Position numbers and translations under genes: made by a program. Under the pieces are notes generated by a model, which had not been told where the DNA came from, ran no database searches, and worked only from the letters and a program-made list of their open reading frames with translations. Source: Flavobacteriaceae bacterium LYZ1037 (lineage in GTDB: Bacteria > Bacteroidota > Bacteroidia > Flavobacteriales > Flavobacteriaceae). Taken from it: 64,000 nucleotides of DNA. The stretch is taken from contig QFWS01000002.1 of the NCBI GenBank assembly GCA_003144015.1, forward strand, positions 558,001 to 622,000. Reading direction: 5' to 3'. Below, piece by piece: positions 12,601 to 62,681 of the stretch (position 1 is its first letter; the number at the start of each line of letters is the position of its first letter).

Positions 12601-12725
12601 GATACAGTTAAATTAAGTAAACAAAGTTCCGAAATTAATCTTAAAGTTTTTTTAAAATTCGGTATAAATGATAATTCAAAACCTAAAGTTTCGTAAATTT
12701 AAAGGAAAACTCCCTCCTGTTGCCT

Positions 12726-14069
12726 ATGAAAAATATTATCTGGATTATTTTAATTATGTGTTTTATTAATAATCTAAGCTTTTCTCAAAGTAAGTTTATT
12801 GTTCAAAATAAAAATGGGTCAGATAAGATCCGTTTTAAACTAATTCATAATTTAATTATAATTCCAGTTGAAATTAACGGTGTAGAATTATCTTTTTTAT
12901 TAGATACAGGAGTTAATAAATCTATCATTTTCAATTTCCTAAACATTACAGATTCACTTCAAATTAAAAACACTGAAACCATCTATTTAAGAGGTTTAGG
13001 AGAAGGGGAAGCTATTAAAGCGTTAAAGTCTAAAGGGAATACTTTAAAAGTAGGTGATGCTATTAATCTCGATCAAGAACTGTTTGCAGTTTATAACCCA
13101 AACCTCAATTTTGCACCACGATTAGGAGTACAATTACATGGAATTATTGGGTATGATTTATTTAAGGATTTGGTTGTAGAAATTAATTATTCTTCAAGAA
13201 AAATAACACTAACTAATTCAAATAAGTATAAATATAACACCTGTGCTTCTTGCGAAACATTAAATATGGAATTTTATAAAAATAAACCATATATATATGC
13301 GAATGTTAGAATAAGAGAGAAACAAATTCCTGTTAAATTATTGATTGATTCTGGAGGGAGTGATGCTTTATGGCTTTTTGAAGATGATAGTTTAGGAATA
13401 CAAGTTGGCGATCATTTTTTTGACGATTTTCTAGGTCATGGCTTAACAGGTAGCGTTTATGGAAAACGTTCTAAAATTGAAGGGTTTTCCATCAATAGCT
13501 TTGACCTAGATCATGTAAATGTGTCTTTTCCAGAACCGACATCTTTAGTCTATGTGAAGCTGCATAAAGATAGAAATGGTAGTATTGCTGGTAATGTTTT
13601 AAAACGATTTAATTTAATTGTAGATTATCAAAAAAGTTTAATAACATTTAAGAAAAATAAGTATTTTTCCGACCCTTTTACTTATAACAGAAGTGGTATT
13701 GAATTAGAGCAAGATGGTGTTAGATTTGTAAAGCAAAAAGATTACAATTATTCAGATAAAATAAAATTTCTTGGAAGTAACCAGAAAACCTCAAGTTCAA
13801 CCATTGTATTAGAAACTAAATATAAGCTAGCATTAAAACCAGCTTATTCAATTGTGGAATTAAGGCCAGATTCACCTGCTGAAAAAGCGGGATTGATGGT
13901 TGGAGATTATCTTTTGTCAATTAACAATAAATCTACTGACAAGTATAGTCTTCAAGAATTAATGCAGATGTTTTTTGAAGATAAAGATGAGCGCATCAAA
14001 TTAGTTGTTGAAAGAGGAGAGGCCATTTTAACTTTTGTTTTCTATTTAGAAGATGTTTTTAAACAATAA
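12726..14069 (+). CDS. Exported two-lobed aspartyl protease with PDZ domain
   Basis: The protein has a signal peptide (about 1-21) and two retropepsin-like lobes in one chain: Asp60 in LDTGVNKS and Asp208 in IDSGGSDA. A C-terminal PDZ domain (about 360-445) includes RPDSPAEKAGL and GDYLLSIN. Proteins of this family are periplasmic or outer-membrane-associated proteases whose substrates are unknown. I chose the ATG at 12726 (447 residues), which begins MKNIIW; the frame also has a TTG six bases earlier, with no merit over the ATG. The gene ends into a hairpin shared with the convergent DUF1573 gene. Confidence 0.85.
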   Translation: MKNIIWIILIMCFINNLSFSQSKFIVQNKNGSDKIRFKLIHNLIIIPVEINGVELSFLLDTGVNKSIIFNFLNITDSLQIKNTETIYLRGLGEGEAIKALKSKGNTLKVGDAINLDQELFAVYNPNLNFAPRLGVQLHGIIGYDLFKDLVVEINYSSRKITLTNSNKYKYNTCASCETLNMEFYKNKPYIYANVRIREKQIPVKLLIDSGGSDALWLFEDDSLGIQVGDHFFDDFLGHGLTGSVYGKRSKIEGFSINSFDLDHVNVSFPEPTSLVYVKLHKDRNGSIAGNVLKRFNLIVDYQKSLITFKKNKYFSDPFTYNRSGIELEQDGVRFVKQKDYNYSDKIKFLGSNQKTSSSTIVLETKYKLALKPAYSIVELRPDSPAEKAGLMVGDYLLSINNKSTDKYSLQELMQMFFEDKDERIKLVVERGEAILTFVFYLEDVFKQ

Positions 14070-31413: not shown

Positions 31414-32523
31414 GTGGTTAAGCTTCACGATTTACAATTTAAGCCTTTTATTTCTGAAGAAGAAATTCAATCGACAGTACAACGTTTGGCAAATGAGATA
31501 GCTAGTGAATTAAAAGACGAAGTGCCTGTGTTTATAGGCATCTTGAATGGGTCTTTTATGTTTGTTAGCGATTTTGTTAAAAAATATCCAAAACCTTGCG
31601 AAGTTACTTTTATTAAATTAGCTTCTTATGAAGGTGTGAAATCTACAGAGGATATTCAACGATTAATTGGGTTAACACAAGATTTAAGTGGTAGAACAGT
31701 CGTTATTTTAGAAGATATTATAGATTCTGGAAATACCCTAGAAGAAGTTCATAGAATTTTTAAAAATGAAAACGTTAAACAATTAATTATTGCCACTTTA
31801 TTTTATAAACCAGCAGCTTATAAAAAAGATTATAAATTACATTATATAGGTATTGAAATTCCAAATAAATTTATAGTAGGCTATGGATTAGACTACAATG
31901 GGTTAGGTAGAGATTTACCATCTGTATATCAATTAAAAACAACACAACATATGACTAACATAGTACTATTTGGCCCTCCAGGTGCTGGAAAAGGAACACA
32001 AGCAAACTTTTTAAAAGAAAAATATCAATTAATCCATATTTCAACTGGTGATGTGTTTCGTTTTAATATTAAAAATGAAACGGCTCTTGGAATGATTGCT
32101 AAATCTTATATGGATAAAGGCGAGCTAGTACCAGATCAAGTTACTATAGATATGTTGAATGCTGAAGTTGAGAAAAATGCCGATGCCAATGGTTTTATTT
32201 TTGATGGTTTTCCTAGAACAAATGCACAAGCGGATGCATTAGATAAATTAATGGACAGCAAAGATTCTCAAATTGATGCCATGGTTGCTCTAGAAGTTCC
32301 AGACGAAGTTTTAGTGGAACGTTTGTTAGAACGAGGAAAAACAAGTGGGCGTCGTGATGATGCTGATGAAGGTATTATTAGAAATAGAATTAAAGAATAC
32401 TACAATAAAACAGCAATTCTAAAAGACTATTATTCTGCTCAAAATAAATATTATGGAGTAGATGGTGTAGGAAGTATAGAAGATATTACTAATCGATTAA
32501 GTTCTGTAATAGATAAATTATAA
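31414..32523 (+). CDS. adk: Fused hypoxanthine phosphoribosyltransferase and adenylate kinase
   Basis: One 369-residue frame joins two purine enzymes. Residues 1-175 form a hypoxanthine-type phosphoribosyltransferase with the PRPP loop VVILEDIIDSGNTL (96-109) and YGLDYNGLGRDLP. Residues 180-369 form a short-type adenylate kinase with P-loop GPPGAGKGT (187-195), a GFPRTNAQAD segment and a short LID without zinc cysteines (GKTSGRRDDADE). The frame between domains is open without a stop; Met180 would be the start of a free kinase. The GTG at 31414 is the start, since the domain begins directly after it. Such fusions are known in Flavobacteriia. It joins purine salvage to AMP phosphorylation. Confidence 0.93.
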   Translation: MVKLHDLQFKPFISEEEIQSTVQRLANEIASELKDEVPVFIGILNGSFMFVSDFVKKYPKPCEVTFIKLASYEGVKSTEDIQRLIGLTQDLSGRTVVILEDIIDSGNTLEEVHRIFKNENVKQLIIATLFYKPAAYKKDYKLHYIGIEIPNKFIVGYGLDYNGLGRDLPSVYQLKTTQHMTNIVLFGPPGAGKGTQANFLKEKYQLIHISTGDVFRFNIKNETALGMIAKSYMDKGELVPDQVTIDMLNAEVEKNADANGFIFDGFPRTNAQADALDKLMDSKDSQIDAMVALEVPDEVLVERLLERGKTSGRRDDADEGIIRNRIKEYYNKTAILKDYYSAQNKYYGVDGVGSIEDITNRLSSVIDKL

Positions 32524-36405: not shown

Positions 36406-37797
36406 TTACTTTTTAACTAGCTTCTTATTGGCTATTAGCACTTTGTCTGAATAAAACTTAATTAGGTAAACTCCTGAATTAAACTGACTGATATCAATGG
36501 CTGATGTTTCATTATTAAAAAAATTAGTTGTCATTAGCTTTTTACCATCTAAGCTGAAAATTTCTACAGATAAGTGAGACCCTAAAGAGCTTTTAGAAGT
36601 GAAATTCACAAGGTCTTGCGTAGGGTTTGGAAACATGTTAATGCTAATATTGTTTTGTTCGCTAGTAATTTCAGCAATACCTATTGTTGATGAATTTATA
36701 GTCCAATTTACCATATAAGCATGTATGGTTTCATGATTATCGATTCTTTGTAGGCTTGTATTGTCTGTAACTACAACGGTTAAATTATTATCACCTTCAA
36801 TCAAATCAGATTCCAGAATATTAACAACATCTACATTTGAAGCGACGTTATTAGAGTTTAGAGACCATGAACTTTCTAAAGTGTTTGGAAAGGGTTGAAC
36901 TAGAGATAAACTAAATTCAATAGGAAAACTAGGATCTTGAATAGAACTGTTTTCTGGAAGATAAGAATCGATTGGCGAAACAAGATCGTGAATTTTTTCA
37001 ATGATGCCTTGTGTGCAAACTGAACAAAAATCATTTCCTAAAATACGCATTTTGCAACTTTGATGTGGTCTATACCAATCTTTAGCAACTCCAGATGTTC
37101 CATAAGCATATATGCCAATTCCGTTAGCATTTATCCAGTTGGTCCATTTTACCAAATTAGGATCTGTTTCTTGAGTCATGTTGATGCCTTCCTCTACCCA
37201 AAAGTCTCCAGGATAATATTCATCTTTTAAATCTACTAAAGAATGTCCCATTTCATGAATGGCAATTTCGCTGGAACTTGTATGTGTTGAAGCTATTGGA
37301 AATTCACCACCACTTCCACCATAATAAGGAGAATTAACAAGAATAAGACCTTGATCGTAGAGAGGGAAATTATCTTGTAAAACACTCATAATGGTCGCAG
37401 AATTCTCTGTATATAAGGATCTATGATACCCATAACTGTCGAAACTAGTTCCAAAATAGTTGTCAACGGTTGCTACAGGAACGTTATAACTTGCTTCATC
37501 GGTTGCAGTGCCAGGATGACTAGCTCCACTTTCGTTTGAAGGTACTTTTATTATATATACATTGAAAAAATTGGTGTATTCAGAAAATGGCGATTGGCTA
37601 AACATGTCCGTTACAATGGCATTCGCATCGATTACAAATTGTGGAAATTCACTAGTTTGATAACCATCACTCATAATCACGATATTAATTCTTTTATCAA
37701 TATCTCCAGTAAATTTTATGTTTTCAACTTCAAATACTTGTGAAAATGAAATTTGAAAAGTAATTACAGTAATAATAAAAAGTAATGTGCGTTTCAT
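36406..37797 (-). CDS. Secreted M64-family metallopeptidase with T9SS sorting domain
   Basis: The 463-residue protein has a signal peptide (1-19) and a zinc-metallopeptidase domain with HEMGHSLVDLKDE (His181, Glu182, His185 and acidic residues at 192-193). This matches the M64 (IgA peptidase-like) family. Serine/threonine-rich later segments precede a C-terminal type A T9SS sorting domain with MFPNPTQDLV and GVYLIKFY. It is exported across the outer membrane as an extracellular protease. The gene follows the small lipoprotein gene by 4 bases, so the two form an operon. Confidence 0.88.
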   Translation of the reverse strand: MKRTLLFIITVITFQISFSQVFEVENIKFTGDIDKRINIVIMSDGYQTSEFPQFVIDANAIVTDMFSQSPFSEYTNFFNVYIIKVPSNESGASHPGTATDEASYNVPVATVDNYFGTSFDSYGYHRSLYTENSATIMSVLQDNFPLYDQGLILVNSPYYGGSGGEFPIASTHTSSSEIAIHEMGHSLVDLKDEYYPGDFWVEEGINMTQETDPNLVKWTNWINANGIGIYAYGTSGVAKDWYRPHQSCKMRILGNDFCSVCTQGIIEKIHDLVSPIDSYLPENSSIQDPSFPIEFSLSLVQPFPNTLESSWSLNSNNVASNVDVVNILESDLIEGDNNLTVVVTDNTSLQRIDNHETIHAYMVNWTINSSTIGIAEITSEQNNISINMFPNPTQDLVNFTSKSSLGSHLSVEIFSLDGKKLMTTNFFNNETSAIDISQFNSGVYLIKFYSDKVLIANKKLVKK

Positions 37798-38844: not shown

Positions 38845-41800
38845 TTAATCGTTATTTACTTGAATTCTAACACCTTCGCTATGACTACTAAATTCTGGTG
38901 CATACATGCTTTGAATGGTGGTAATGCCATTGCTCATGTTTCCAGCATTGCTTACGCGTAAATCGTATTCGAATACGTAAACACCTTTTGGTAGATAATC
39001 GAAAAAGAAATTGGTAGCAGCATCTTTAGTGCTTTCATAATAACCCAAGCCATCTTGCCATTTGTATTGAGACAACACATTAACGGGTTCTAAACCACTT
39101 GCTCTCATGTCTTTCATATGAAGGAATTCCATGTCTCTATCGCTTGTTAGCTCTATACGAATGCGAACCAAATCACCAATTTTTAATTGGGTGTAAGTTG
39201 ATATTTCAGAAAGTTCTTCACCCAAATCTGTGTTGGTTTTTAAGAAGAGTTTTTTCTTAAGAGTTAAAGGGGTTTCACCCGAAGTAATTTTATCTAAATC
39301 TTCAAAATATTGCCAGTATAAACTACCCCAAGCTATGCCTTCGCCTTTTTTGGTTAAGGTCACTTCTGCCATGTCTGGTTTAATTTCAGAACCAGTCCAA
39401 GCCGTTTTATAATAACCGGTTCCAGCCTCTATTTTCACGTCTTCCAGTTTAGAAGGTTCTATGCTATTGCCACCTATAACCACATCAACCATATCTGTTA
39501 CAGATAACCAATCACTTCCTTGAAGCAATAAGGCATAGACAGCTTCGGTGGTTGCTTTTGTGGTTTTCCAACGGTTGGTTTGCTTATTTTTTAGAAGCCA
39601 GATTTTAAGGTTGTCAATAGTTTCTATGTCGTTTTCAATTTCTGAAAAGGTTTCAATCAGCAAGGCTTGTGTTTCAATTGGAGCCTGATACCAATACCAC
39701 GAGCTTGTGTTTGCTTTCCAGTACATGCCTAACTCATCACTTGTAATACTGTTTTCTTTTAAAGACTTTAGGATTTTTACTGCTGTAACATCATCCTCTA
39801 ATCTATGCGATACTAAGGCCATTAAGCCTTTAGAATATAACGAACGGCTTGCCCAATATTTCTGAATTTGTGTTTGGTAATAGGCGATGATTTTTTCAAC
39901 TTCATTCGATTTCTTAATCTCAGGAAAAAAGCTTCGCATGTATAAATAATGCAATTGGGTATAACTTAAATGATCTAAGCTTAAATCTGCCTTGGCGTTG
40001 TATTTGGTGATGTCTTTGTATTCTTCAATAAATTCTTTGTCTAGATAAGACATAGCTCTTTTAATCATAGTTTCTTCGCTATCACTCTGATTGACATCTA
40101 GCTTATCTAAATGACCAAAACCAGTAATGATATGTTGTGTGATATACCTATTTGATCTGCCACCTTGAAACCAGGCCCAAGCTCCATTACCCATTTGGTT
40201 TTGTTCCAACTTGCGAATATTAGCTTCCAATTCGCTGGTCATTTTATTTAAATCGAACAGCAAAGCAATCCGTTTCTTTTGTTCGCTTTCACTCTCAGCA
40301 TCTCGTAACCAAGGCGTTTCTTCAATCAATATCGATTTTAGTTCTTGGTTCTTTTCTAAATTAGAAAGTAAGGCATCTGTGTTTTTCCAATGATTAAAGA
40401 CTTCTTGAATTCTAGGATTCGAATTGACAATATGGCTTGCCAAGGAATTTGCATAATATCTACTAAATATTTGTTCATTACACTCATAAGGATATTCCAT
40501 TAAATAAGGTAATGCTTGCACAGCATACCAAGCAGGATTCGAGGTCATCTCTAACGTCAGCTTATGATGTTTTAAGGTGGTTGAGGTATTTGTCTTTAGT
40601 TTATCTAAAGTGAAGGTTCTAGATTCGTTCGAACGGATCCACATAGGAAGCGTTTCAGTAACCAACATTCTATTAGAAAGTACAGGAAGGGCATTTTGCT
40701 CGCCATCGCTAAAATCGCCAGCTTTGGCAATTATTTTATATTGAACAGCATCTACATCATCTGGAATAGACAAGCTCCAAGATACTTCTGTATTCCCTTT
40801 TTCATCTACAGTAAAAGCCTTTGTATTTTGAGTATTGTTTAAATCAGCATCAATGGCTTTGCCATTGGTTGCATTAAAAAGTTGCAAAATGGCTTGTCCT
40901 GACAATTCTTTTTTAGTCAAGTTTGCAATTTTAGTGCTGATGGTTATTTGGTCTCCTTGACGTAAAAAACGTGGTGCATTTGGAAGCACCATCAGTTCTT
41001 TTTGAGTCACTGTTTCTAAACTGGTTGTTGCAGACTCCAACGTTTTGGTATGTGCTACTAATTGCAGTTTCCATTTTGTTAAAGCTTCTGGTGTTGTGAA
41101 GCTAAAACTCACGTTGCCTTTGTTGTCTGTTTGTAATTGTGGAAAGAAAAAAGCCGTTTCCTGAAGGTTTTTACGAATTTTTACTTGTGTGAAGTCTTCT
41201 TTTGTTGTGTTAGTTGGGTTTTCAATGAGTTTTTCTTTACTTAAATCATCCATTTCTGAATTGCCATTTAAGCTAGAAGCTCCTCTAATTATAATATTTG
41301 AAGAAGCTCCAGGAGCAGCACTGTCTTCTGTAATTTGAACACCCGCTACCTTACCAGATAATGCTTTTACAACAACTGATTCTTCCAATTCTACGCTATC
41401 ATAGAATACTTCATATTGATTATTATATCCAAGATGGAACCCAAACCAATCTAATTGGTCGTAGTTATTCTGAGGATAATAAGCATGATATCTTTGCATG
41501 TTTTGAACTCTAAACCCTTCAGTAGAAAAACTAATTCTGGCATTTCTATAGCTATTAGAATAATAAGTAGGAAGATTTATTGGATTAAAACTCCAGTTGT
41601 GAGGTTTAAATTGGTCTAAAGACATGTCGTACATACTAGCTAATATTTCGGCAGATACCTGTTCGCCTTTTGGGCCTTTAATTTTAAAACTCCAAGTCTC
41701 ATCTTGTCCTGGCTGAAGCTTATCTCTAAACGAGGTAGTTTCAATCTCTAAATCGGTTTTAGGATAAGGCACAGAAATAGATCTGGTGCCAGATTCAAAA

Positions 41801-44800
41801 CTATTGGCATAAGCCAAACTATAATGCACGGCAAAACCACCTAAATCTGCTTTATTAACAGGAATGCTTAATGTTTTCTTGCTATTATTTAGTTGAATGA
41901 TATAGGTATTTACAGTTTGTTTGTTCTTTTCAATTTCAACTGTTACTGATATGTTTTCGGCAGCCGAAGCCAACGTTAGTAGAACAGTTTCGTTTATTTT
42001 GTACGTTACTTTATCGGTCGATAGGCTAAAAAGCTGCTTGTCAGCAAGTGTGTTATCGGTGTTACTAAATAACGTGGTTCTGACTTCGTCTTTCACCTCT
42101 TGTCCAAATTTGTCTTTGCTTTCCAAGATAACAACATACTGTCCCGAGAGCCATTTCTTTATGTTTCCTAACTCTAATGTTTTAGACTTTTCGGTATTGA
42201 AAGACTTTTCAAAAACAAGGTCTCCTTTTTTCCAGTTATTAGGATTGTCTTCACCTTTATAGGCTTCAAAAGGGAACTTGGTTTTAAACTCTTTCTCAGA
42301 AAGTACTTGATAATCTGGAGCCTTCCAAGGTCTTGGTCGCAATACAAAATCGGGTGCTTGAAGCTTGTAGATTTTTACGGTTCCTTGAGCAGGAACAAAT
42401 TCGCCATTCAGGTTTTTTGTTTCAATGTTAAGGAGGTGTTCTTTATTTGTCTTATCTAAAGTTACATCTACTGAAACCGTTGCAAGCAAAGCATGATAGC
42501 CAACATGAACAGTGGTTGTAGCAGAACGTGTTTCCCCATTTAAATCGGTTACATCTGCTGTCACCTCATAATTAAAAATAGGAAGATTATCTTTATTAAC
42601 ACTTGTATCTGGAAGGGCTTTAAACGTGATTTCAAACTCGCCTTTCTCGTTAGTGGTAGCTTCACCATGAGTTATTTCTTGCGACTCGCTAGAATAGGAA
42701 GGTCTGTACCAATAATACCAACGTGGATATTGCACTTGTCTATGTACGCGATAAACTACTTTAGCATTGGTAATATTACTTCCAGCATAAGCCAGAGCAT
42801 GTCCTTTGATGGTCACAGAATCGTTTACTTTGTAACTGTCTGTAACAGGTTTAAATTGGGCTTCAAACTTGGGGCGTTTGTATTCTTCAACTGAAAAATA
42901 ATACTCAATATCAACATCATTAGCAGCACCATAAAAATTAATACTATACTCTCCGTTTAATCCTGAATTGGGTAGCATAAATTCTCCAGAAACAGAACCA
43001 AATTCATTTGTTGTTAATTCTAGTTCTGTAACTTCATTGTAGTTTGTGTCATAAACTTCAATATGAAATAATTCGTTTGCAATTATTTCTGATTTACCAT
43101 TTTTAGTTTTTACAGCTACCCCTTTAAAATAGACAACTTGTCCAGGTCTGTATATGCTTCGGTCTGTAAATAAAAAGGCGTTATAATCCTCTGTATCGTC
43201 TTCCCAGTCGTATTTTCTATTGAGATAATAATCTCCAAAAAAGGCTTTTTCGTCTGAACAAGTTGCTTCTATGCGAACATTGGACCATGTGTTAGACCCT
43301 TTAATCAAAGCAATTTCTCCAGAAGCATTTGTTGAATACGTTTTACTACTTTGATTATCTTTATAATTTTTACGATACGTGATGTTAACTTGAAGATTGC
43401 TTAATGGTTTTCCGTTGTTTCTATCAATAAACTGATAGATTTGTTTGTCTTGTTCTGTTTTTTCAACAACAGCAATGTTGGTCACCTGAAAGGTGTTGTA
43501 TGCAAAGATGTTTTCTTTGTTATGGGTTTTTGCAACAATTAAATATCTGCCATTATCAAGCTTTGGCAATAAGAGCTCGGTACAGTGTTGTTGAAAATCT
43601 AATTCGTTTTTTAGAGTGCTTTTCCAAGAGGTCTCTGCTTTTAGCTTGTTAATATAATCAAGCTTATCAACTAGATTATGGATTTTGTCGATGGCTTCAA
43701 ACTGTTTTTCAAATATCTTATAAGCACTAAAATCTAGCTGCTCTAAATTTTTATACCTCACTAATATTTTAGCATCTTGCTGAATTGGTAAATAGTTTTC
43801 AGCCTGTATATTTAAGGACTCTTGATGTATTTTTTTTAAAAGAATCTGTGCCTTCACAGCTGCATGACTCTTAGGAAATTTGATGATAATACTCTGACAT
43901 AGTTGTTCGGCATCTTTTATTTTCCAGCGATTGGTTTCATTGGTTATTGGCTGATAATCTTGCCCTTGTTTATAGTAAATATTGGCAATCTCAAAAGTAT
44001 ATAAACCAGAAGCTTCATGTGTTTTTATACGTTCTGCTTCTGTGGCATATGCTTGAATTAATAAGTTGTCTTTATTTTTAAAGGTGGCATGTTCTTTTAC
44101 AAAGTTGTATCGTAAAATATTAACGTCTGCCAACGCATCAGGTTTGTTGTCTTTTAGATGAAACCGAATTAAATCTTGATATACTTTTAAAGCTTGTAAT
44201 TCTAACGACGTGGAATCTTTTGAAGTGATGTTTAAATTTGAAAAAGTTTTGGAATCGCTTAAATAAGCGTCATCATCAATTTCAAATTTATAAGCCGGTT
44301 TGGTAATGCTATTTTCAGAGGTTTGATAAAAACCAAGTGCATTATGTGCTAGCAAATCAAATAACGTTGGTCTGAATATTTTAGAATCTTTTTGTTCAAG
44401 CAGAATGCTGGAGTAGGTCTTTAAATTTTCTTGCTGAAGAAGTTCAGCATTTTTTAAAGAATTGGTATAATGCAGTTGAATCTCAGTAAAAAGGGTTTCC
44501 AAATCCCAGGTTCTAAAATCAGTAGCAACAGTTTTATCAGCTACTTTGGTTCTATTGTAAAATTTGTATCTGTTCTGCTGAAAATATTGCCAATAGATAG
44601 TAGCCAGCATATTTTCTAACACATTCTTTATGGGAGCTTCGTTCTTAGAAATAGCAGTTTTAAAATCTGTTACAACCTTTAGTTGCGCCTCTTCTTCAAG
44701 AATTAAGGCAAACTTACTTTTAAAAAGCAAGGTCTTTATTTGTTGAGGTTTGTTTTTGTCTTTGATGGCTTGAACGGAAATTTGTTCAACAATCTTTAAA

Positions 44801-44928
44801 GCAGATTTTGGTAAATCGTCTCTTTCAAAAGCTTCTACTTGTTTCCATAGCTTTTCATAATCATTGTTTTGAGCTTCAGAAAAATTTGAGAATAGTAAAA
44901 CCATTAATATTGTAACGTAGTATTTCAT
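38845..44928 (-). CDS. Alpha-2-macroglobulin family protein with an embedded SusC plug-like segment
   Basis: The 2027-residue exported protein has a signal peptide (1-19), a long helical N-terminal region (about 25-370), macroglobulin domains including the MG2-type YRPGQVVYFKG near 593, the A2M domain starting RKNLQETAFFFPQL near 1260, and an alpha-helical thioester-type domain with CNEQ at 1483-1486 (canonical CGEQ; Cys and Gln are kept). Such proteins trap proteases, probably in the periplasm here as no lipobox is seen. Residues of about 1183-1225 match the plug of SusC-like receptors: ALSGKVAGVQIT and IIIRGASSLNGNS. It is not paired with a penicillin-binding protein 1C gene, the usual partner in proteobacteria. 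Confidence 0.9.
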   Translation of the reverse strand: MKYYVTILMVLLFSNFSEAQNNDYEKLWKQVEAFERDDLPKSALKIVEQISVQAIKDKNKPQQIKTLLFKSKFALILEEEAQLKVVTDFKTAISKNEAPIKNVLENMLATIYWQYFQQNRYKFYNRTKVADKTVATDFRTWDLETLFTEIQLHYTNSLKNAELLQQENLKTYSSILLEQKDSKIFRPTLFDLLAHNALGFYQTSENSITKPAYKFEIDDDAYLSDSKTFSNLNITSKDSTSLELQALKVYQDLIRFHLKDNKPDALADVNILRYNFVKEHATFKNKDNLLIQAYATEAERIKTHEASGLYTFEIANIYYKQGQDYQPITNETNRWKIKDAEQLCQSIIIKFPKSHAAVKAQILLKKIHQESLNIQAENYLPIQQDAKILVRYKNLEQLDFSAYKIFEKQFEAIDKIHNLVDKLDYINKLKAETSWKSTLKNELDFQQHCTELLLPKLDNGRYLIVAKTHNKENIFAYNTFQVTNIAVVEKTEQDKQIYQFIDRNNGKPLSNLQVNITYRKNYKDNQSSKTYSTNASGEIALIKGSNTWSNVRIEATCSDEKAFFGDYYLNRKYDWEDDTEDYNAFLFTDRSIYRPGQVVYFKGVAVKTKNGKSEIIANELFHIEVYDTNYNEVTELELTTNEFGSVSGEFMLPNSGLNGEYSINFYGAANDVDIEYYFSVEEYKRPKFEAQFKPVTDSYKVNDSVTIKGHALAYAGSNITNAKVVYRVHRQVQYPRWYYWYRPSYSSESQEITHGEATTNEKGEFEITFKALPDTSVNKDNLPIFNYEVTADVTDLNGETRSATTTVHVGYHALLATVSVDVTLDKTNKEHLLNIETKNLNGEFVPAQGTVKIYKLQAPDFVLRPRPWKAPDYQVLSEKEFKTKFPFEAYKGEDNPNNWKKGDLVFEKSFNTEKSKTLELGNIKKWLSGQYVVILESKDKFGQEVKDEVRTTLFSNTDNTLADKQLFSLSTDKVTYKINETVLLTLASAAENISVTVEIEKNKQTVNTYIIQLNNSKKTLSIPVNKADLGGFAVHYSLAYANSFESGTRSISVPYPKTDLEIETTSFRDKLQPGQDETWSFKIKGPKGEQVSAEILASMYDMSLDQFKPHNWSFNPINLPTYYSNSYRNARISFSTEGFRVQNMQRYHAYYPQNNYDQLDWFGFHLGYNNQYEVFYDSVELEESVVVKALSGKVAGVQITEDSAAPGASSNIIIRGASSLNGNSEMDDLSKEKLIENPTNTTKEDFTQVKIRKNLQETAFFFPQLQTDNKGNVSFSFTTPEALTKWKLQLVAHTKTLESATTSLETVTQKELMVLPNAPRFLRQGDQITISTKIANLTKKELSGQAILQLFNATNGKAIDADLNNTQNTKAFTVDEKGNTEVSWSLSIPDDVDAVQYKIIAKAGDFSDGEQNALPVLSNRMLVTETLPMWIRSNESRTFTLDKLKTNTSTTLKHHKLTLEMTSNPAWYAVQALPYLMEYPYECNEQIFSRYYANSLASHIVNSNPRIQEVFNHWKNTDALLSNLEKNQELKSILIEETPWLRDAESESEQKKRIALLFDLNKMTSELEANIRKLEQNQMGNGAWAWFQGGRSNRYITQHIITGFGHLDKLDVNQSDSEETMIKRAMSYLDKEFIEEYKDITKYNAKADLSLDHLSYTQLHYLYMRSFFPEIKKSNEVEKIIAYYQTQIQKYWASRSLYSKGLMALVSHRLEDDVTAVKILKSLKENSITSDELGMYWKANTSSWYWYQAPIETQALLIETFSEIENDIETIDNLKIWLLKNKQTNRWKTTKATTEAVYALLLQGSDWLSVTDMVDVVIGGNSIEPSKLEDVKIEAGTGYYKTAWTGSEIKPDMAEVTLTKKGEGIAWGSLYWQYFEDLDKITSGETPLTLKKKLFLKTNTDLGEELSEISTYTQLKIGDLVRIRIELTSDRDMEFLHMKDMRASGLEPVNVLSQYKWQDGLGYYESTKDAATNFFFDYLPKGVYVFEYDLRVSNAGNMSNGITTIQSMYAPEFSSHSEGVRIQVNND
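41256..41382 (-). other. SusC plug-like segment inside the alpha-2-macroglobulin
   Basis: Residues 1189-1224 align without gaps to residues 142-177 of the SusC protein at 59499-62681 with 23 identities in 36 positions (hand count). The shared signature is ALSGKVAGV, then GAS, IRG and GNS. It lies between a macroglobulin domain and the A2M domain, where animal homologues hold the bait region. No barrel or TonB box follows. Confidence 0.7.
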
Positions 44929-59498: not shown

Positions 59499-62400
59499 TT
59501 AAAATTTAACATTTACGCTAAAGCCTATTGTTCTAGCCGATGGAGTTTGAGCATACTCTAAACCTTGTTGACCAGTACCTGTACCAAATGCAGTTTCAGG
59601 ATCAATATGTGGAGCCTTTTTATAAAGTATAGCAAGATTTCTTACATTCAAACCTAAATCGATAGATTGGATTGGAATGTTATTGAATAATTTCGAAGGA
59701 ATTGAATATCCTAATGAAAGTTCTCTCCATTTTACAAAAGATGCATCGAATACAGAAGATTCTGCAACCCCTTGACTAAATGCAGTAGAGTAGTAACCTT
59801 GAGCTGTTTGAACTACATTGTTAGGTACATATCCACCGTTTCCGTCAGACATTACACCATTTCCAATAACTCCAGTTTCTCTACCAGGAAGTGTTTCAGC
59901 AAGTACTCCAGATAACATACCCCAAGTATTAGTTTGAGAATATACATCACCACCACTTTTCACATCGAATAAAGTTCTAAAACTAAATCCTTTATAAGAA
60001 GCATTAAGTGCTAAACCACCAGTCCAATCTGCTTGAGAGTTTCCTAATACTTTGTATTCACTATCGTAAACAGGTAAACCATTATCGTAAATAATTTCAC
60101 CGCTATCAGTACGAGCAAAAGCAGGACCGTAGATTACACCAATTGGGTAACCATTTCTAGCTTGTGTATTTACGTTCCATAAATTACCTGATGTTAAATT
60201 TACAGCATCACCAGCTATATCGCTAACTTCGTTATCGTTTTTACCAAAGTTTACATCAATACCAAAATTGAATCCACCAGCTTCTTTGCTTCTAATAATA
60301 TCAGCACCAAGAACTAACTCAATACCTTTATTTGTAATAGTAGCAGCATTATCCCATACACTAGCAAAGCCAGATGCAGCAGATACATCAACAGGTAAAA
60401 TTACATCAACAGCTTCTTTGTTGTAATAAGAGAAATCTACTCTTAATCTGTTAGAGAAAAATCTTCCATCAAATCCAACTTCAAATTCTGTTTCTTCTTG
60501 AGGCTTAATGTTTTCATTCCATAAAGTTGTTCCAATAAAAGCTGTTGGGTCAGTTCCGTTTAAAGGGAAACCACTTAAGCTATAAGATGGTGCAACATTG
60601 TAAGCACTTAAAGGACCTGCACTACCAGTTTTTGCCCAAGAACCTCTTACTTTTAAGAAAGAAACTATGTTCTTATCAATGCTTAACATATCACTAGCAA
60701 CAACACTTAAAGATGCAGCAGGATAGAAGAAGCTATTGTTAGATGCTGGAAGCACTGAAGCCCAGTCATTTCTACCACTAAAATCTAAATAGATATAGTT
60801 TTTATAGCTAATTTGACCTGTACCAAATAAACTGTTAATAGCACTTTCAGAACTAGTATCAGTAATTAATGGAGATGAACTAGAGTTTGATAAATTAAAT
60901 AATTTATCTAAAACTAATTGTTCAGCAATACCTTGAAAAGCTCTGTATTTAGTTTTCATGATATTTCCACCAACACTTAAGTTTAAACCAAAGTCTTCAC
61001 TAGCTCCAATTTTAGTATCGTAAGATAAAATGGCTTGTGTATTTACTTCATAACTATTTCTATTAGTTAAGCTGTAATACCCATTACGGTTATCTACAGT
61101 ACCAAAAGAACGTTGTACCTCTCTTGTATCATCAAAATAATCGATACCAGTAGAAGCAGAAATGTTTAAGTTATCTGTAATCTCGTAAGCAAGATTCACA
61201 GAACCTAACCATCTGTTTCTTTCCCAAGGGTGTAAGTTGTTATCAAGTGCCCAGAAAGGGTTATTGTTGAAATTTAAATTCCAGTTTAGTGGAGTATAGA
61301 TACCAGGATTGTTGGTTTCAATTAATGGAAGGTTTTGCCAGTCTCTTAATAAAGACCAATCAACTTGTCTTGCTCCCCATACTAATTGACCAATTTGGTT
61401 GTCTACATCACCATATCCAACTGCATTTCTGTTATCAGATTGACTTTTAACATACATTGCTGTAACTCCAGCACTCCATCTGTCGCTTAAATCAAAGTTC
61501 ACATTTGCAGAAATGTTGTATTTTTTCAAATCTGTATTGTAGATAATACCTTCAGCATCTGTTAATCCCATAGATAATCTATAAGAAGCATTATCAGAAG
61601 AACCATTTAAAGATAACGTGTTTGTTGTAGATAATCCAGTGTTATAGAAATCATCTTTCACACTGTCAGGGTTAGAAACCCATGGTTGTGCTTGAGGATT
61701 GTCTGGATTGTCAATTAATGATTGGAATTGAATAAAATCAAAACCAGCATCTAAAGCAGGTCCCCAACTTTCGTCAGTACCACCGTCTCCAGAAACAGCT
61801 CCACCATCATAACCAAAACCATCTTTAAATTCAAAGTAACTTTGTGAGTGACCTTGACCATAAGAGTTTTGATAATCTGGGAAGATATAAGGGTTAGAGA
61901 AGCTTACATTACTAGATAATGAAATACCTAAAGCTTCTTTTTTAGATCCTGTTTTAGTTGTAATTACAATTACACCATTTTGACCTCTCATACCATACAG
62001 AGACGTTGCAGCACCACCTTTAAGAACATTTAAACTTTCAATGTCTTCAGGGTTGATATCTGCAAGACCATTAGGTAAATCTGTACCTGAATTTGTTTCT
62101 GCAAATGTAGAGTTGTTCATTATTACACCATCAACAACAATTAAAGGCTGTGAGTTTCCGTAAATAGTAGAAATACCTCTAATCGTAATACGCGTAGAAG
62201 CACCTATATCTCCAGAAGATTTAGTAATGTTAACCCCAGCTACTTTACCTGATAATGCGTCAACGACGTTTGTAACAGGAACTGTGGTTAATTCATCAGA
62301 TTTAAGGTTTTGGGCAGAATACCCAATACTTCTCTCTTCTTTTTTAATACCAAGAGCCGTTACAACAACTTCATCAATTGCAGTAACATCTGGTGCCATA

Positions 62401-62681
62401 CTAAAACTCATGTTGTTGGAAGCTCCAACAGTCATTTCTTTTTTAGTATAACCTACGAAAGAGTAAGATAAGACATCACCAGCACTTGCAGATATGGAGT
62501 AATTTCCATCAAAATCTGTTTGTGTACCATTTGTCGTACCTTTTACAATAATATTAACTCCAGGAAGGGGTAACCCGTTTTCATCGGACACAGTTCCTGA
62601 AATTGTTTTTTCCTGTGCAAACGTAAATTGCACAACAAACGCTAGGAATAGCGTTAAAATTCCACTAAACTTTGTTTTCAT
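59499..62681 (-). CDS. SusC/RagA-family TonB-linked outer-membrane transporter
   Basis: The 1060-residue protein has a signal peptide (1-22), a carboxypeptidase-regulatory-like domain (about 25-100, LPLPGVNIIVKGT), a TonB-box-like VVVTALG near 106, the plug with ALSGKVAGVNI (142-152) and ITIRGIS, and a long beta-barrel ending in an aromatic residue (SVNVKF). It imports large ligands with energy from TonB. It is the first gene of a four-gene operon with a SusD-like lipoprotein and two lipoproteins. No sigma/anti-sigma or glycoside hydrolase adjoins it. Confidence 0.96.
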   Translation of the reverse strand: MKTKFSGILTLFLAFVVQFTFAQEKTISGTVSDENGLPLPGVNIIVKGTTNGTQTDFDGNYSISASAGDVLSYSFVGYTKKEMTVGASNNMSFSMAPDVTAIDEVVVTALGIKKEERSIGYSAQNLKSDELTTVPVTNVVDALSGKVAGVNITKSSGDIGASTRITIRGISTIYGNSQPLIVVDGVIMNNSTFAETNSGTDLPNGLADINPEDIESLNVLKGGAATSLYGMRGQNGVIVITTKTGSKKEALGISLSSNVSFSNPYIFPDYQNSYGQGHSQSYFEFKDGFGYDGGAVSGDGGTDESWGPALDAGFDFIQFQSLIDNPDNPQAQPWVSNPDSVKDDFYNTGLSTTNTLSLNGSSDNASYRLSMGLTDAEGIIYNTDLKKYNISANVNFDLSDRWSAGVTAMYVKSQSDNRNAVGYGDVDNQIGQLVWGARQVDWSLLRDWQNLPLIETNNPGIYTPLNWNLNFNNNPFWALDNNLHPWERNRWLGSVNLAYEITDNLNISASTGIDYFDDTREVQRSFGTVDNRNGYYSLTNRNSYEVNTQAILSYDTKIGASEDFGLNLSVGGNIMKTKYRAFQGIAEQLVLDKLFNLSNSSSSPLITDTSSESAINSLFGTGQISYKNYIYLDFSGRNDWASVLPASNNSFFYPAASLSVVASDMLSIDKNIVSFLKVRGSWAKTGSAGPLSAYNVAPSYSLSGFPLNGTDPTAFIGTTLWNENIKPQEETEFEVGFDGRFFSNRLRVDFSYYNKEAVDVILPVDVSAASGFASVWDNAATITNKGIELVLGADIIRSKEAGGFNFGIDVNFGKNDNEVSDIAGDAVNLTSGNLWNVNTQARNGYPIGVIYGPAFARTDSGEIIYDNGLPVYDSEYKVLGNSQADWTGGLALNASYKGFSFRTLFDVKSGGDVYSQTNTWGMLSGVLAETLPGRETGVIGNGVMSDGNGGYVPNNVVQTAQGYYSTAFSQGVAESSVFDASFVKWRELSLGYSIPSKLFNNIPIQSIDLGLNVRNLAILYKKAPHIDPETAFGTGTGQQGLEYAQTPSARTIGFSVNVKF

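Follow-up and report, generated by a model that had tools for sequence, protein, structure and literature searches.

Baits of flavobacterial alpha-2-macroglobulins form a fast-turnover mosaic with pieces related to SusC, LptD and GldJ

Results

A SusC plug piece lies in the bait of the window macroglobulin

The window, by which we mean the whole 64,000-nucleotide stretch analysed here (contig QFWS01000002.1 of Flavobacteriaceae bacterium LYZ1037, positions 558,001 to 622,000), carries an alpha-2-macroglobulin gene whose hypervariable bait interval contains a short piece related to the plug of the outer-membrane protein SusC. A sequence-only reading of this DNA had placed the gene at 38845-44928, which is correct, the strand being minus, and had located the plug-like segment at the bait position, where we also find it, between the A2M_BRD and A2M domains. 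The features of the gene are as follows.

38845..44928, minus strand: alpha-2-macroglobulin gene, 2027 aa, ATG start
N-terminus of the macroglobulin, minus strand: apparent signal peptide followed by Gln, MKYYVTILMVLLFSNFSEAQ, read by eye
42889-43179, minus strand: MG2 domain (Pfam)
41683..42027, minus strand: A2M_BRD (bait region domain), residues 968-1082 (Pfam)
41179..41436, minus strand: hypervariable bait interval, residues 1165-1250 (86 residues), flanked by the conserved WFGF and IRKNLQET
41368..41385, minus strand: EESVVV, residues 1182-1187, a possible degenerate TonB box (compare DEVVV of SusC), seen by eye, weak and non-significant alone
41257..41364, minus strand: SusC plug-derived piece, residues 1189-1224, ALSGKVAGV...IIIRGASSLNGNS, from sequence comparison with SusC
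40897..41157, minus strand: A2M domain, residues 1258-1344 (Pfam)
40471..40482, minus strand: thioester motif CNEQ, residues 1483-1486, found in the translation
38893-39264, minus strand: bMG10 domain (Pfam)

Pfam scores exceeded the respective cut-offs for MG2 (66.7 bits against 32.8), A2M_BRD (28.8 against 22.7), A2M (66.1 against 21) and bMG10 (115.7 against 26.2), and by its domains and motif the window protein is a thioester alpha-2-macroglobulin, the sole one of its genome in a PF00207 search. No lipid-anchor Cys stands at the end of the apparent signal peptide (...SEAQ), as read by eye and without a predictor; we do not treat an inner-membrane lipoprotein anchor as defining for macroglobulins of Bacteroidota.

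Residues 1189-1224 align with residues 142-177 of the SusC encoded in the same window, with 23 identities in 36 ungapped positions, exactly the number that the sequence-only reading had counted by hand. The relevant SusC features are these.

59499..62681, minus strand: SusC gene (TIGR04056)
62361-62603, minus strand: SusC N-terminal extension
62361-62375, minus strand: SusC TonB box DEVVV
61971-62333, minus strand: SusC plug
62151..62258, minus strand: SusC residues 142-177, the counterpart of the bait piece

The bait segment and this SusC gave a local alignment score of 114, compared with a mean of 38.4 (s.d. 5.8, maximum 66) for 500 shuffles. A profile check proposed beforehand came out divided: neither Pfam Plug nor the NCBIfam SusC model was reported at E≤1 with the whole macroglobulin as query, and the 103-aa bait region alone had no Pfam match at E≤0.01, hence none to Plug (PF07715), but the same region alone matched TIGR04056 (SusC/RagA) at profile positions 110-152 with E=5.6e-10. 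This match amounts to 38.2 bits over 43 positions and does not reach the model cut-off of 368.25 bits; scanning the complete own genome with TIGR04056 recovered the piece with E=5.4e-9. When all 2027 residues were used in a phmmer search of the Protein Data Bank (PDB), residues 1180-1225 matched the SusC BT_2264 (5fq6) with E=1.5e-5, which ranked above all four macroglobulin sequences found. No SusC barrel matched in the macroglobulin, in agreement with the earlier statement that the protein has no TonB barrel. By these comparisons the bait piece is homologous to the SusC plug.

In an AlphaFold2 model of residues 950-1430, built with 40 relatives, model residues 197-294 (1146-1243) had a predicted local distance difference test score (pLDDT) below 50; two 3-residue strands lie ahead of the copied SusC piece and none within it, and the piece itself is modelled without secondary structure at a pLDDT of about 25-31. 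This outcome of the structure check suggested in the sequence-only reading is only weak evidence of bait disorder, since low pLDDT is expected for a hypervariable insert; the mean pLDDT of the model is 58.1, so that the flanks of the bait are likewise only partly reliable.

The SusC of the window is the single one of its own genome (G000) above the TIGR04056 cut-off, and it lies 14.6 kb from the macroglobulin on the same strand; in all seven genus genomes with both genes this distance is 14.3-18.4 kb. In nucleotide sequence, the window piece and its own SusC agree at 71 of 108 positions, and the SusC of a congener (G003) agrees with the piece at just as many, 71 of 108; that the neighbouring SusC donated the piece directly and recently is thus not supported. 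When the own genome and six congeners were searched at the DNA level with the window piece, A2M loci alone were reported, among the 40 candidates scored per genome out of 45-70. As the piece is not specially close to the DNA of its own SusC, it is no fresh copy; on this comparison its capture is old, or the donor is gone.

Baits of the genus hold other SusC pieces at the same spot

Eight genomes of the genus were searched, and a macroglobulin was found in seven, the eighth (75% complete) giving SusC only. The bait of G005 holds a different stretch of the SusC plug from that in the window bait, that of G001 holds a TonB box and is near-identical to the bait of L009, and those of G002, G003, G006 and G007 hold the SusC N-terminal extension plus TonB box (G and L numbers denote genomes of the genus and other sampled loci, respectively). 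The sequence-only reading had proposed to abandon the segment if plug profiles missed it and close homologues lacked it. The exact segment is indeed absent from the congeners and Pfam Plug is negative, but the congeners hold other SusC pieces at the same spot, and the test so framed would have misled.

A tree of the modules was built without six SusC rows and without seven A2M rows that were long or odd (a fuller set lacked two of each). In it, the extension/TonB-box modules of four genus species grouped with the genus SusC with support of 95/94, the bootstrap not having settled.

SusC, LptD and GldJ pieces occupy the baits of relatives

Of 159 genomes surveyed in the window's family, 85 had a match to the C-terminal flank of the macroglobulin at E≤1e-10; across the phylum, 73 of 296 genomes had one at E≤1e-8, all of these phylum genomes being at least 90% complete. 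Baits were read as the interval from the conserved WFGF to IRKNLQET. A first survey took in 87 baits: that of the window, those of six congeners and those of the 80 best among 507 relatives. In this survey the SusC model matched 27 and the GldJ model four, with E-values down to 1e-35, and Pfam placed the carboxypeptidase-regulatory-like domain, which corresponds to the SusC N-terminal extension, in four baits and Plug in three. Mean column identity was 14% across the 87 bait regions and 75% in the C-terminal flank of 12 sequences.

Pooling yielded 233 baits, or 225 distinct ones after eight near-identical baits had been merged. Forty of the 55 phylum matches without a ready locus were taken in and 15 left out; L315 and L333 were excluded because their longest frame was other than the A2M frame, and eight repeats of sampled genomes as well as L176/L177 were left out before pooling. 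In ten distant rows that lack an anchor (L318, L323-L330 and L332), the bait was taken as the 300 aa up to frame position 530. Recognisable donor pieces were found in 108 of the 225 distinct baits (SusC in 95, LptD in 15, GldJ in five), with E-values down to 1e-89, and neither 450 reversed or shuffled baits nor 729 non-bait windows from 81 full-length proteins gave a single match to the SusC, LptD or GldJ models. The survey of relatives that the sequence-only reading had called for thus places SusC pieces at the same position in 95 baits, and the finding is wider than the plug, because SusC extension, TonB box, LptD and GldJ pieces fill the same slot. Weak members of these counts are the GldJ piece of L251 (model positions 317-347) and the LptD piece of L008 (E about 0.01), and in L291, L292, L304 and L332, which are within the 95, the regulatory-like domain may be a general fold that does not derive from SusC. 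The baits of L288, L291 and L292, from another family of the phylum, have a regulatory-like domain of different look, GTITGTVYYEDGKK...

The matches were confined to particular regions of the donors. SusC matches fell within model positions 10-258 of 1021, that is, N-terminal extension, TonB box and plug, and no pooled bait matched the SusC barrel; LptD matches lay within positions 151-264 of 764 and GldJ matches within 317-484 of 576. Twenty-three SusC-matching baits span most of the plug (L015, L025, L217, L246 and L250, for example), which bears out the statement of the sequence-only reading that some Bacteroidota macroglobulins carry plug domains. The SusC model also matched beyond the window's family, for instance in L308, L314, L319 and L330. 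Several baits are chimeric: L003 combines SusC, LptD and plug pieces, L277 LptD and plug, L045 GldJ and LptD, and L014 SusC and GldJ. When 51 donor genes (30 SusC, 15 LptD and six GldJ) were compared with the baits in six frames by blastp, all matches were in frame 0, namely 91 baits to SusC, 16 to LptD and six to GldJ, and none of the baits held an out-of-frame or antisense copy of these sampled donors. Two loci, L002 and L003, share 94.9% and 92.3% identity on the two flanks of the bait and 30.1% within it. The bait is a fast-turnover mosaic.

LptD and GldJ were recognised as donors when ten baits, selected visually for their lack of clear SusC pieces, were searched piece by piece with tblastn against nine genomes (the hosts of eight of the ten baits and the window's genome). 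Apart from A2M itself, all matches at E≤0.1 fell into two classes of frame, one 559-594 aa and the other 922-944 aa long; a further match had E=0.2. The L164 frame of the shorter class is GldJ (TIGR03524, E=1e-284), the L165 and L173 frames of the longer class are LptD (PF19838, E=7e-172 and 1.6e-176), and the other frames of both classes were named from their length and the matching query. Each of the two genes was found once per genome. In the PDB, GldJ residues 378-430 match designed propeller proteins; the LptD of L165 had no match there by sequence, and profile A3 likewise had none. GldJ has an FGE-like fold with significant insertions according to PMC12421860, and we regard the stretch of GldJ that was copied as one such insertion.

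LptD pieces were acquired in several lineages and resemble the resident LptD. Among 14 of the 15 LptD-bearing baits (L008 was excluded), the own LptD ranked first for seven and had a mean rank of 1.7 of 15, and none of 20000 permutations gave a mean as low. The pooled ratio of nonsynonymous to synonymous divergence (dN/dS) between the pieces and the own LptD was 0.29 (bootstrap 0.21-0.37), a value to be read in the light of the fact that pieces drifted further would escape detection.

Gene neighbourhood

The macroglobulin is flanked by a gene for a TPR protein and a Mur-ligase-like gene (Pfam). Judged by size, order and strand, both neighbours recur in four of seven loci compared (L003, L015, L025 and L070); they are partly kept in L050 and L061 and not kept in L063. 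The second gene downstream, on the same strand (36406-37797, minus), encodes an M64 (IgA peptidase-like) metallopeptidase that carries a sorting tail for type IX secretion; a secreted protease lies beside a protease trap. Elsewhere in the window, an aspartyl protease with a PDZ domain (12720-14069, plus strand) is a possible endogenous protease acting on the bait, if exported, and a single frame at 31414-32523 (plus strand) combines phosphoribosyltransferase and adenylate kinase domains.

Discussion

A bait copied from envelope proteins as a decoy

The homology, location, confinement to donor regions, donor frame and turnover of the pieces were all observed, and the explanation we prefer, to which we give a little less than an even chance, is that the bait is a rapidly replaced cassette copied in frame from the cell's own outer-membrane proteins and acting as a decoy. 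The window protein would be a protease-trapping macroglobulin, most likely periplasmic. Its relatives would draw their cassettes from the N-terminal extension, TonB box and plug of SusC, from a short region of LptD before the barrel and from a stretch of GldJ, and the cassette of the window would be a trimmed SusC plug piece. As far as is known, these donor regions face the periplasm. This is so for the extension and TonB box of SusC (PMC7782687), and likewise for the part of LptD before the barrel and for the GldJ donor region. Going by what is known of the family, cutting of the bait would make the macroglobulin collapse and the thioester attach the protease. A protease attacking SusC, LptD or GldJ would then presumably also cut the imitating bait and be trapped, and it could not evolve to ignore the bait without ignoring its envelope target. 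PMC4498604 and PMC9352918 describe how the cut bait releases a conformational change, exposing the thioester that binds the protease. We infer, with belief and doubt in about equal measure, that the bait imitates protease-accessible envelope segments to catch attackers. Of the roles that the sequence-only reading had offered (decoy, docking site for a SusC barrel, cleavable bait), the cleavable bait fits best, its function being deduced. More tentatively, and as a possibility that we would not call probable, the Bacteroidota may possess a self-mimicking trap in which the bait repertoire is repeatedly rebuilt from the cell's own SusC, LptD and GldJ segments, a germline-diversified, decoy-based defence of the envelope.

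The main rival to the decoy reading holds that the bait is neutral filler, which need only be long, flexible, cleavable and tolerated in the periplasm, the origin of the pieces being without function; we regard this as a credible account, though one that we would not expect to be right. Homologous recombination with SusC genes would keep an ancestral insertion of the SusC N-terminal part fluid, deletions would make it decay, and LptD and GldJ pieces would come from rare illegitimate recombination and then spread by descent or bait exchange. Modules running from extension to plug, present in 17 rows of the scaffold tree, would account for the restriction of SusC pieces to the N-terminal part of SusC, and the junctions between pieces in L004, L035, L021 and L277 resemble, by eye, short shared stretches. 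This account has to contend with LptD and GldJ, which were found once per genome and had no prior homology to the bait, with the recurrence of the same short LptD region in distant lineages, where it resembles their own LptD, and with the finding that no sampled donor had been copied out of frame or in antisense orientation. Amino acids are retained in the longer extension modules (proportion of differing sites 0.67 for synonymous sites, pS, which are near saturation, and 0.29 for nonsynonymous sites, pN), but capture from the SusC of related species would look alike. One ancestral fusion with vertical decay alone was also considered and set aside: the approximately unbiased (AU) test on the extension modules does not reject it (p 0.27), but it leaves the LptD and GldJ pieces unaccounted for.

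Several observations weigh against the decoy reading, and some of them speak for neutral filler. The four LptD pieces of lowest synonymous divergence have dN/dS of 0.4-0.7, which is compatible with near-neutral drift. Half of the tested LptD pieces (L002, L004, L022, L035, L060, L188 and L205) score higher with another bait than with any LptD in the panel, the others (L003, L007, L012, L028, L045, L228 and L277) being closer to an LptD; separate captures are therefore fewer than carriers, and by this comparison part of the spread of LptD pieces is shared ancestry or bait exchange. The own GldJ ranks first of six for L049, third for L021 and sixth for L045. A scaffold tree was built from 181 sequences, six of them outgroup and 175 from the window's family. 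The SusC label requires 42 changes on it, compared with 60.4 in shuffles (minimum 49), and is partly inherited, as it is more clustered than shuffles. The 15 LptD carriers require 14 changes (shuffles 14.6), a stricter set of 12 carriers 12 changes, and the five GldJ carriers five (shuffles 4.9); labels spread as in shuffles fit turnover but also detection noise. The AU test does not reject one clade for the entire set of A2M extension modules (p-AU 0.27). Finally, 117 of the 225 baits are without a recognised donor. A search for donors of 16 such baits in their 16 genomes gave none except a 1111-aa frame at E=0.05, and in the genomes searched no fourth donor was found for the 'W.PKN' pieces, one match having E=0.7. 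The short 'W.PKN'-like motif was noticed by eye in baits of several lineages (L010, L031, L033, L199, L247 and L269).

Docking or signalling seems to us unlikely. On this view the extension, TonB box and plug would serve to attach the macroglobulin to TonB, to a SusC barrel or to the machinery of outer-membrane assembly, and short baits would be degenerate relics. Near-complete modules do exist in some relatives, and a TonB-box-like motif occurs in 73 of 175 family baits against a shuffled mean of 2.3; the same pattern is absent from the other 102. In SusC the extension precedes the TonB box, and in Bt1763, for which PMC7782687 reports a test of the TonB box VDEVVV, deletion of the extension stopped growth on levan. 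TonB binding is not known for LptD or GldJ pieces, and an insert that must be cleaved to fire the trap is an odd site for a permanent dock. For the window protein in particular, docking is unsupported because only 36 matching residues remain and are modelled without secondary structure, and we rejected a docking plug as its main reading. Chance or convergent similarity, to which the shortness of the window segment and its absence from Pfam Plug matches might point, and an assembly artefact are both highly improbable given the E-values and clean controls on the one hand and the recurrence in many independently assembled genomes on the other.

To our knowledge, the targets of bacterial macroglobulin defence are poorly known. 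If baits copy host envelope segments, the copies name candidate targets of the trapped proteases, and macroglobulin function would become directly testable by bait swaps that ask which proteases are caught. The system would, moreover, clearly exemplify how a bacterial protein can diversify one region with pieces of unrelated genes of the same cell.

Comparison with known systems

In the literature covered, which takes in neither subscription journals nor preprints, we found no description of macroglobulin baits derived from SusC, the TonB plug or LptD; the combination of macroglobulin and plug domain is presumably visible in databases. We class the protein among the macroglobulins, its bait being of a new kind. 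It resembles the bacterial macroglobulins ECAM and SaA2M, as presented in PMC4498604, in its MG2, BRD, A2M and bMG10 domains and CXEQ thioester and in having the bait, probably disordered, between the BRD and A2M domains. In cleaved ECAM, 20 bait residues (Arg923-Leu942) were without density (same source), and the variable interval of the window protein has 86. Unlike ECAM, which has an inner-membrane lipoprotein anchor, the window protein has no Cys at its apparent signal-peptide end, and unlike in both, the bait interval of its relatives holds whole modules of outer-membrane proteins. With SusC/RagA proteins (TIGR04056) it shares a bait piece homologous to the plug, to which relatives add N-terminal extension and TonB box; unlike them it has neither a barrel nor a complete plug, and transport from the piece alone is impossible. 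Animal thioester proteins and macroglobulins have a hypervariable bait that diversifies much faster than the scaffold, and this feature is shared by the family described here. Unlike the hypervariable baits of animals, for which no such source is known to us, those of the window protein and its relatives gain new sequence from unrelated genes of the cell's own envelope.

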